Assembly (NCBI RefSeq): GCF_000498395.2
Contig: NZ_CP010979.1
Location: forward strand, 3,472,001-3,536,000
Origin: Pseudomonas putida S13.1.2
GTDB taxonomy: Bacteria; Pseudomonadota; Gammaproteobacteria; Pseudomonadales; Pseudomonadaceae
Length of the DNA stretch: 64,000 nt
Reading direction: 5' to 3'
The position numbers were made by a program, and so were the translations under genes. The first letter of the stretch is position 1, and each line of letters begins with the position of its first letter. Under the pieces are notes generated by a model, which had not been told where the DNA came from, did not search any database, and worked only from the letters and a program-made list of their open reading frames with translations. Positions 39,009-40,902 of this stretch are shown here, piece by piece.

Positions 39009-39460
39009 GGTCAACACTCCTTGGATTGGTCATTTTTGCAGCCGTTTTCCTTCGGCTGCGCAACCAACCCTAGCGGCTAACCCGGCAGCAATACACCCAA
39101 CAACCCCGGCGAATGGTTACCGGATCGGTCAGCAAAACGGTCAGCTTCGCCCACCCACCAACAGCGGCCATTCCCCCCGGTTGGCCAGGGCCCTGCGCCT
39201 GTAGCCAGATCCCCGTTTACCGCGTAGCCCCTGCCCACCAACGCCCGGCCATTCTCCTACACCACCCGCCGAACAAGGCCCGCCCCGTGAACTGCCCTCC
39301 CCCGGGCGCACACCCAATCGGGCTGCCGTCGCACCGCGCCAGACGCGTCAGACTTTCCTGAAACCTTGCCCCCGCCTCTTCAGTTGGGAGCAACAAGCGA
39401 ACTATCCTACACGCCAGTCAGAAGCAGCTGAATTGTCGGGGAAATGCCCCAGGGATAACT
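39009..39460. other. Intergenic region, pyrimidine-rich, no supported gene
   Basis: This long stretch is rich in C and poor in credible start sites. It contains a GCAGCCG-TTTTCCTT-CGGCTGC hairpin near 39041 and a GGGG-AAAT-(G)CCCC hairpin near 39439. It separates comEA from the structured leader of the DUF3077 gene and presumably holds both promoters. Confidence 0.4.
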
Positions 39461-39463
39461 TCA

Positions 39464-39622
39464 CCGGGTCGCCATGTTGGGGACCGGGTGTGAGAACCTG
39501 ATGCGAGTTACCTGGCTTGCCTGTCATGGCGGTCGTACGCGGGCAGACTTCGGTCTGGCCGGGCTTTGTAGCTCCCTCGGTTTCTCACCCCGTGTACGAC
39601 TGCCGCCCTGGTCCGTGAGAAA
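39464..39622 (+). ncRNA. Structured 5' leader upstream of a DUF3077 gene
   Basis: A 16-bp helix joins 39528-39543 to 39589-39604 with only two G-U pairs. Inside it are a UUCG-capped hairpin CAGAC-TTCG-GTCTG (39544-39557) and a second hairpin (about 39559-39580), giving a junction. A separate GGTC..GACC hairpin lies at 39467-39485. TTTCTCAC (39581-39588) can pair either with GTGAGAAA (39615-39622) or nearly with GTGAGAAC (39490-39497), so alternative folds are possible. The ribosome site at 39648 lies just downstream. It is a candidate cis-regulatory RNA. Confidence 0.55.
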
Positions 39623-39660
39623 GATTCGCGTGGCAGTTCCACTTATCAGGAGCTACTACC

Positions 39661-39936
39661 ATGGAAAAAAACGACCCATCCCCCATCCTTACCGCAGGCA
39701 TCGAAACCTTCCTCGAAGCCGGCAACCCCACCCTGGACCTGCTCCGCGTCCAGCCCGGCGTCCCCGTCGATGATGCCTATGAACACGTCTCGGTCCTGCT
39801 GGGCTACTGCAAGCACCTGGTGCGCGAAGGCGACATGGAAGACGACCACAAAATGCTGGGCGCAGCCGATTACCTGCTGGCCATGGCCAAAGCACTGATG
39901 AACGACATCGAGATAGCGAAGAACAAGCGCCATTGA
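39661..39936 (+). CDS. DUF3077-family protein
   Basis: A 91-residue acidic soluble protein. The block LLRVQPGVPVDDAYEHVSVL and the ending LGAADYLLAMAKALMNDIE match the DUF3077 family, found mostly in Pseudomonas and often in several copies per genome. The function is unknown. AGGAG at 39648-39652 supports the ATG at 39661. A long structured leader precedes the gene and may control its translation or transcription. Confidence 0.8.
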   Translation: MEKNDPSPILTAGIETFLEAGNPTLDLLRVQPGVPVDDAYEHVSVLLGYCKHLVREGDMEDDHKMLGAADYLLAMAKALMNDIEIAKNKRH

Positions 39937-40096
39937 TGGCGCTATCCCAAGCCCCGGCGAGGCTGCGCGGCGCTTGCCGCGAGATGGGGTAGGCAATGTC
40001 GGCAGGAGTTTTGTGAAAGCAGGCTTTGTGGGGAGTCGACCTTATGGCAGCAGGCTTGCCCTACGAACTTACGAAAACAGCCTCGCCCCGCAAACT

Positions 40097-40140
40097 GGTA
40101 GGCGCGGGCTTGCCCCGCGAACACCGGCACAGCCGGTGCC
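40097..40140. repeat. Single REP arm with adjacent hairpin
   Basis: GGTAGGCGCGGGCTTGCCCC and on to GCGA is followed directly by CACCGGC-ACA-GCCGGTG. No inverted partner is present. This is the last REP-like unit in the window; none is seen in the capsule locus. Confidence 0.65.
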
Positions 40141-40188
40141 ATCCCCCACAGCACTACAAAGCATCACAGCGCCCCTGCAGCCCGCCCT

Positions 40189-40902
40189 TCAAATCACTGT
40201 CCGCGGATAAACACTGATAAAGGCAGAAATAGCAATCGCATCCCCATCATCAACTTTCACCCGCGGGCTCTGCCCCGAGCGTTTGATATCGGTTGCAAAC
40301 TCAGCCGTCTTGAACGCCTGCTCCAGCTCGTCACTGCCCGTACCGGCATAAACAACCACTTGGGTCCCGGTATTTTGCTTCTGCAGTTGCAGCTGTTTGA
40401 TCTGTACCTGTACCCCTGCCTTGGTCAGCGCAACGGCAATCTCCTTGGCAAAGCGAACAGCTTCCTTGTCATCCTTGTGGATATTCAGCAATACCACTGG
40501 CGCCAGTGTTTTAGCCTTCAACTCGCCCGCCAATGCCTTGAAGGCGTCATGCGCCTGCGGCGTCAGCGCCCTGGGCTTAAGGCTGGCCTCCAGCTTGAGC
40601 CGCTCGGCCCTTTCGCGCTCCAGTTCGGCCCTTAGAGCGTCGTTCTGCTCCATGAGCTGCTCGATCTCCAACTGAGCCTGCACGTCCGACTCATTGACGA
40701 CCGTAACCGCCTGTGGGGCCCGCGCAACGATCACTTCGGAATGCTGGTTTTTCACATCCGAGGTCATATGGGCAAGGATCATTGCACTCGCCGCGATCAA
40801 GGCCGCGATTACCGCAGTGGCAGAGGCTATGGCATGGATAAGGCTGGCTGTGTCTGCTGAAATATCAGGCATAAACAACTTCTTGACGTTGTGGATGTTC
40901 AT
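40189..40902 (-). CDS. Membrane-anchored coiled-coil protein of unknown function
   Basis: A 237-residue protein. One membrane helix (about residues 23-44, IHAIASATAVIAALIAASAM) is followed by a long charged segment with heptad-like Leu/Glu/Arg spacing (about 72-105, likely coiled coil), then a compact mixed domain (about 120-237). The ATG at 40902 has only a weak ribosome site, and an ATG at 40872 is also possible. No family was recognised. It lies between the core region and the capsule island. Confidence 0.65.
   Translation of the reverse strand: MNIHNVKKLFMPDISADTASLIHAIASATAVIAALIAASAMILAHMTSDVKNQHSEVIVARAPQAVTVVNESDVQAQLEIEQLMEQNDALRAELERERAERLKLEASLKPRALTPQAHDAFKALAGELKAKTLAPVVLLNIHKDDKEAVRFAKEIAVALTKAGVQVQIKQLQLQKQNTGTQVVVYAGTGSDELEQAFKTAEFATDIKRSGQSPRVKVDDGDAIAISAFISVYPRTVI

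Follow-up and report, generated by a model that had tools for sequence, protein, structure and literature searches.

A C4-type antisense RNA in front of a DUF3077 gene of Pseudomonas putida and its matched copies along the chromosome

The locus and its folded leader

The stretch of DNA analysed here, 64 kb in all and termed the window in what follows, carries on its + strand a gene for a 91-residue protein (39661..39936) that matches the DUF3077 profile (PF11275) with 54.6 bits for a cut-off of 21. This gene is the first and apparently the only one of its module, and is presumed to be controlled by the RNA that precedes it. Its neighbours are a helix-hairpin-helix gene on one side and an ABC-2 transporter gene on the other; of four genes tested in its flanks, three have matches to cellular families and the fourth has none. 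The leader of the gene (39464-39660) had been predicted to fold strongly, and this is borne out: on the + strand it reaches -88.8 kcal/mol (z -3.0), better than 200 of 200 shuffled sequences. The fold of its - strand is not unusual (z -0.55, 57 of 200 shuffles being as good).

Within the leader lies a segment, 39522..39610 on the + strand, that the Rfam covariance model of C4 antisense RNA (RF01695) matches over its full length (positions 1-87 of 87) with 66.4 bits, over a curated gathering cut-off of 45 (E 1.1e-10 in 64 kb). One tRNA is the only other Rfam match over cut-off in the window. A long stem, P1 (39528-39543 with 39589-39604), which comprises 16 base pairs of which two are G-U, is present in the letters as well as in the minimum-energy fold, and covaries among homologues. 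It encloses P2, a UUCG hairpin (39544-39557), and P3 (39558-39580), the loop of which holds an antisense segment, b'; both hairpins, like the stem, had been described correctly from the letters. Long P1, two enclosed hairpins, covariation and full-length score together place the RNA in RF01695. In front of the DUF3077 gene, then, stands a C4 antisense RNA of the phage type, which is a small antisense RNA and not a ligand switch. The original prediction had proposed a cis-acting switch or a small RNA: the latter was right, while a switch of folds within one RNA is not needed. It also knew of no described element of this kind, and there it erred, because the RNA belongs to RF01695; the association of this RNA with DUF3077 is what we found in no open-access paper.

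Antisense segments and their targets

C4 RNAs are recognized by two antisense segments matching the ribosome site of the next gene and the region upstream of it, and both are found here, all on the + strand. Segment b' (GTAGCTCC, 39568..39575) is the exact complement of b2 (GGAGCTAC, 39649..39656), which holds the Shine-Dalgarno (SD) sequence of the DUF3077 gene, and the duplex would have 8 exact pairs at -14.9 kcal/mol. Segment a' (TTTCTCAC, 39581..39588) is the exact complement of a2 (GTGAGAAA, 39615..39622), with 8 exact pairs at -10.3 kcal/mol; both pairings are cognate-specific across loci. Imperfect copies of the two targets lie 5' of C4: a1 (GTGAGAAC, 39490..39497), the GTGAGAA of which pairs with a', and, adjoining it, b1 (GAGTTAC, 39505..39511), which makes 7 pairs with b', one of them G-U, at -8.9 kcal/mol. 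From 5' to 3' the order is a1 (39490), b1 (39505), C4 (39522-39610), a2 (39615), b2 with the SD (39649) and the start codon (39661). The pairing options of TTTCTCAC with GTGAGAAA or GTGAGAAC, the two GTGAGAAN stretches, had been seen in the original prediction exactly as they are, and b' had been missed. These competing partners are best read as antisense segments within C4 and targets placed upstream (a1/b1) and downstream (a2/b2).

The upstream copies have an Rfam family of their own, c4-a1b1 (RF03163), which likewise groups a1/b1 targets upstream of C4. In the window, 39455-39504 scores 20.2 bits with this model, below the cut-off of 46.7, so that a1b1 is identified here by pairing and not by family score; the model is over cut-off at 11 of 20 copies scanned in the same genome. 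The isrK model (RF01394), which fits the a1b1-terminator segment of certain modules in Pseudomonas, gives no match up to E 1 in 39200-40000.

Fold predictions qualify the accessibility of these segments. In isolated C4, seven of the eight a' bases are predicted to be unpaired (probability 0.94-0.99), three b' bases to be paired and one half paired, and the SD of the target is mostly predicted to be paired. A local hairpin (39635-39654) can indeed close the SD without C4, an anti-SD arm, AGTTCC (39635..39640, + strand), being able to pair with 39649-39654. Such an arm, with at least five exact pairs, occurs at 53% of 98 loci and at 11% in shuffles (start codons in this survey and in those of open reading frames were picked by a simple SD rule). 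The arm may also keep the site closed and present part of b2 in a loop. A dimer calculation limited to nested folds gave no contact between C4 and target (gain 0.0); we count it as silent because loop-loop contacts cannot be drawn in it.

Matched pairings among C4 copies

The genome holds 22 C4 loci over cut-off (up to 150 candidates scored). Together with 90 loci from the genus (30, and 60 taken one per genome), which lean to high scores because they were taken from the best-scoring places, they make 112 loci, and 98 distinct C4 once 14 repeats of identical C4 are dropped. Exact runs of at least 7 pairs between a' and a2 are found in 22/22 cognate combinations of the genome and in 15% of sampled non-cognate ones; for b' and b2 the figures are 17/22 and 4%. 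Ten thousand random re-assignments of targets (10,000) never reached the means observed in this genome (z 9.2 for a, 7.6 for b). With the 98 distinct C4, such runs occur at a in 97 (z 20.5) and at b in 73 (z 17.2). When at least 6 exact pairs are required at both sites, 21 of 22 cognate combinations remain, against 3 of 462 non-cognate ones. Matches to the upstream copies a1 and b1 are cognate-specific too in this genome (z 7.6 and 5.8), those at b reaching at least 7 exact pairs in 12 of the 22 copies. The letters themselves vary a great deal: 21 different b' matches and 14 different a' matches are found among the 22.

The rule is not without exceptions at b, where pairing between b' and b2 stays below 7 exact pairs in 5 of the 22 copies (25 of the 98). 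In three of the genome's C4 (L036, L047, L052) the four best runs of each copy include none of 7 pairs that lies at the ribosome site, even with G-U allowed; their b score comes from 6-nt runs, and that of L036 is not clearly at the SD.

Stem P1 was followed in an alignment of 81 distinct stems (17 pairs) derived from 141 C4 sequences. Standard pairs fill 98.2% of its cells, against at most 91.0% in 2000 shuffles that redistributed the 3' strands over the sequences, a control that ignores relatedness, and 14 of the 17 pairs have changed on both sides. The genome's 22 C4 taken alone give 8 of 17 pairs changed on both sides and 97.3% of cells paired, against at most 94.7%. A lack of compensatory changes had been named in advance as the result that would speak against the prediction; such changes are frequent. 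The opening edge of P1 reads ATGG in 122 of 124 distinct C4. As far as a comparison of sequences goes, the pairing at the window locus is more than chance: it recurs with other letters at other loci, and the stem covaries.

Coordinated change around a conserved protein

A further comparison is with a locus of Pseudomonas sp. 10-1B (L170), whose protein is 98% identical to that of the window (19 nucleotide and 2 amino-acid differences), and which has the downstream neighbours of the window and different upstream ones. Identity to the window is high in the upstream part with a1 (96%), in a' (100%), in a2 (94%) and in the coding sequence (93%); it drops to 41% in b1 and its linker, 53% in the b' loop, 30% in b2 and the SD, and 67-70% in the strands of P1. 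The pairing is there nevertheless, with other letters: b' contains CAGTGC, and b1 and b2 both contain GCACTG, for 6 exact pairs only. The window's b' is kept at three further loci (L171, L172, L173), one of which (L171) has GGGGCTAC at b2 and retains the pairing via a G-U pair. A more distant one (L174, 86% identical protein, rearranged neighbourhood) has the second b set in common with L170. At or next to the window locus there are at least two codes, which differ in b1, b' and b2 while the protein is almost the same; to judge from these alignments the three have changed together, and cassette recombination and stepwise change are alike possible. Two loci first taken for same-place orthologues (L070, L071) were rejected, since blastn shows their neighbourhood to be rearranged; the statement on allele swap rests on L170, where only the downstream side is shared.

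Genes that follow C4

A covariance-model search upstream of DUF3077 genes had been put forward with the original prediction as a way to check it. In this genome a C4 precedes 13 of 15 DUF3077 matches by no more than 0.5 kb, on the same strand, and among other genomes the count is 29 of 29 fetched loci (the best match per genome, from 29 of the 187 other genomes with a DUF3077 match). The two genes that stand apart (L053 at 982255 and L067 at 4072503 of the chromosome) have no C4 up to E 0.01 and may be controlled otherwise.

Seen from the RNA, a DUF3077 or DUF6124-like gene lies within 900 nt 3' on the same strand at 18/22 C4 of the genome and 41/90 of the genus, and at 0/112 loci on the opposite strand, with a superfamily profile that was built from the same fetched loci. 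It may be the first open reading frame (ORF) after C4, as in the window, or a later one. No gene of the superfamily is found within that distance at 4/22 and 49/90 C4, respectively. Of the other C4 of this genome, three successive ones stand before 42-aa ORFs and one before a 28-codon ORF (L042). The three form a tandem array of C4 modules at 4278118-4280710 of the chromosome (L033, L034, L035), every one of which has a separate a'/b' code and is followed by a 42-aa ORF; the ORF of L033 overlaps the next one, in which there is no Pfam match. At 9 of the 90 genus loci, eight of them judged by eye, C4 is followed by an ORF of Bro-N type, 172-175 aa long (L028, L029, L099, L100, L103, L104, L110, L111, L114; shortened at L107). 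The one tested matches Pfam Bro-N with 46.2 bits, and its PHROGs relatives are named anti-repressor.

C4 is present in at least 275 of 298 genomes of the genus (up to 14 candidates scored per genome), and in at least 11 of 228 other genomes of the class, where at most 4 copies were seen (up to 18 candidates per genome). A search for DUF3077 in 273 other genomes of the class gave no match. Twelve of 20 scanned DUF3077 loci (L072, L073, L075, L077-L084, L087) have a tRNA gene, a common place of integration, no more than about 1.3 kb away.

Related modules are carried by mobile elements. Viral contigs gave two loci for the window protein, three for a paralogue from the same genome and one for a third type; 22 viral contigs carry the 52-aa first ORF of a related module. 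C4 stands before this ORF in all 11 of the loci scanned, with a1b1 over cut-off in 9 and the isrK model over cut-off in 6. On one contig (L203, 6923-12896) the C4 module has a helix-turn-helix ORF (just under cut-off) on one side and Toprim and DUF927 genes on the other, a setting reminiscent of P4-like satellites; this suggests satellites that employ C4 as an immunity RNA. Plasmids gave one DUF3077 match (41% identity, P. putida T25-27), with C4 upstream: the 19-kb P. putida plasmid NZ_CP043577.1 (L158, 1193-1978) has a1b1, C4, a hypothetical gene and the DUF3077 gene in succession. No plasmid gave a near-DNA match of the window module.

Upstream elements and the protein

A candidate promoter -10 region or regulator site, TATCCTAC (39403..39410, + strand), lies about 117 nt 5' of C4 and is unchanged in six aligned sequences. 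The motif TCCTAC is found at a distance of 60 to 270 nt 5' of C4 in 15 of the genome's 22 copies when the strand of C4 is read, on the other strand in 1 of 22, and in 3.3% of 210-nt pieces of the window taken as background. No sigma-70-like site was found in 39200-40250, which leaves TATCCTAC as the only lead to a promoter. Seven of the 22 copies (L037-L041, L043, L048) share TTTCCCAAANATACT some 120-130 nt 5' of C4, where most others have TCCTAC; three of the seven have TCCTAC further up. There are perhaps two promoter classes, as far as these motifs indicate.

The DUF3077 protein shows dN/dS values of 0.03-0.22 against eight relatives, and is under strong constraint by this measure; all its named relatives (25/25) come from Pseudomonas. 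In furfural-adapted P. putida, a single-base insertion is reported to have restored a DUF3077 frame (PMC9630843). An AlphaFold2 model (23-sequence alignment; mean pLDDT 79.8, pTM 0.70) predicts a hairpin of two helices, preceded by short strands. Foldseek returned no match at E ≤0.001 in PDB or BFVD. VIA-align 2 reached Z up to 7.8, ribosomal and designed helical hairpins included, which may reflect only a common arrangement, and a search of solved structures by sequence gave weak matches only (best E 0.0035, DHP1). Rop variants were among the structure matches, and a Rop-like reading was dropped because any helical hairpin would match. A PADLOC search for defence systems with three proteins, and tblastn against phage records with three DUF3077-type proteins, gave no match; the window protein has a single PHROG match, to a group of unknown function.

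Relation to known C4 systems

A C4 RNA is characterised by excision by RNase P from a longer transcript, down to about 77 nt, and by repression of the translation of its target. C4 RNAs are known chiefly as a phage immunity device, while the multi-copy chromosomal relatives reported in Acinetobacter come without established targets. For P1 and P7, PMC5320573 describes a b' loop that overlaps part of the ribosome site, with a' pairing on the upstream side. The window RNA is alike in its covariance match, its three-stem fold and the placing of its two segments at and upstream of the ribosome site. It differs from the C4 of the c4-icd-ant operon in being chromosomal, in having a DUF3077 target in place of icd/ant, hence no antirepressor, and in being one of 22 copies with almost all different codes. 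Speculatively, these codes might be regarded as heteroimmune alleles of the kind that separate P1 from P7. The Bro-N type ORFs that follow C4 at nine genus loci are of the target type known from P1.

The closest chromosomal parallel is the Group 1 sRNAs of A. baumannii, a 21-copy C4-like family whose RNAs are expressed and seem to be processed at a GG edge (PMC5320573), an edge that corresponds to the ATGG edge of Pseudomonas C4. The account given there establishes no target for this family, whereas nearly every copy described here has one in the adjoining mRNA, in many cases an mRNA for the same small-protein family. The Gifsy-1 system of Salmonella (IsrK/orf45-anrP), where a short leader RNA named IsrK turns on the translation of its own long mRNA, is alike in this leader RNA, its read-through transcript, small ORF and antirepressor (PMC4825925). 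The window differs from it by having no RF01394 match, no terminator between a1b1 and C4, and the DUF3077 gene directly next. We take STnc1160, the stable processed RNA downstream of IsrK, to be the C4-like part; PMC4825925 itself does not speak of a C4 RNA. Its authors compare IsrK with seqA/CI/seqC of P4, where a processed antisense RNA likewise lies between two target copies in one leader; P4 CI acts by transcription termination (PMC4825925), and we liken it to our case by description, not by sequence comparison. C4 was predicted in Pseudomonadales in 2010, as cited in PMC5320573, and a 2010 table lists both c4 antisense RNA and c4-a1b1 (PMC2864571). In the open-access literature, supplements aside, we found no paper that links C4 with DUF3077 or DUF6124, nor any description of multi-copy C4 modules in Pseudomonas. 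The RNA family and multi-copy chromosomal C4 (in Acinetobacter) are known; the DUF3077 setting in Pseudomonas was found in no open-access paper.

How the module may work

The two recognition segments match the start region of the next gene, and C4 therefore most likely keeps this gene off. That a processed C4 blocks translation of its own DUF3077 mRNA is, as the explanation of the whole, highly probable. Direct support comes from family membership, the pairings and their coordinated change, the covariation of P1, the association with the gene and the constraint on the protein. We infer transcription in the window, processing, repression and its relief, and a role for a1-b1, along the following lines. 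One leader transcript would comprise a1-b1, C4, a2, b2 with the ribosome site, and the DUF3077 gene. By analogy with P1 and P7, RNase P would cut C4 (about 80 nt) out at the GG (39528) that opens stem P1. On further copies of the mRNA, b' would pair with the SD region b2 and a' with a2, and an excess of C4 would hold translation of DUF3077 off. Pairing with a1-b1 would probably limit C4's own transcript or titrate C4, as has been proposed for P4 CI and seqA, and the letters of a' and b' would keep the window module apart from the other 21.

The same pairings might act mainly through attenuation of transcription, contact with nascent a1-b1 or a2-b2 leading to premature termination and the translational block being secondary. 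The order seqA-CI-seqC of P4 is that of a1b1-C4-a2b2 (PMC4825925), and mobile-element copies, in the 6 of 11 noted above, have an isrK-like terminated leader between a1b1 and C4. In the window, however, no terminator-like site separates b1 from C4 on the + strand, and the position of b2 over the SD suits a translational block, so that we hold attenuation to be unlikely as the main mode of action. A leader toggling between folds within one molecule, with no free C4, is a good deal less probable still: all the pairings are possible within one RNA, and the local anti-SD arm exists, but the family members studied are excised (in P1 and P7, and apparently in A. baumannii, PMC5320573), and two targets per antisense pair together with the prevalent ATGG edge suit an excised RNA. 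Judged from the neighbouring gene, it is very improbable that the window C4 mainly regulates other mRNAs in trans, its neighbour being incidental; such a role is suggested for the C4-like sRNAs of A. baumannii (PMC5320573), but the match to the neighbour's SD region is exact and tracks changes in C4. The presence of C4 on viral contigs, and some copies of the genome that look damaged (such as L042), could suggest a decaying prophage relic with no present function, which coordinated change of target and antisense, compensatory changes in the stem, the low dN/dS and the cellular families of the flanking genes, all signs of constraint or of a cellular setting, make barely credible.

What the modules may mean for Pseudomonas

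In our reading, a processed C4 acting on its own DUF3077 mRNA would be a device that passed from phages or satellites to the chromosome, where it multiplied, a direction that we infer. More speculatively, and we would rather doubt it than believe it, a phage immunity RNA might have given rise in Pseudomonas to a chromosomal array of insulated small-protein genes that silence themselves, with private codes that are heteroimmune-like alleles and could serve in self/non-self checks. If this were true, a resident C4 would silence an incoming module of the same code, and a foreign code, or loss of C4, would switch the small protein on. One chromosome with 22 natural antisense/target pairs and few cross-matches makes a test bed for the divergence of specificity after duplication. 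Targets of C4 are readable from sequence across a genus, many of them on one uncharacterised family of small proteins, and the DUF3077 and DUF6124-like genes gain a likely regulator and an experimental handle.
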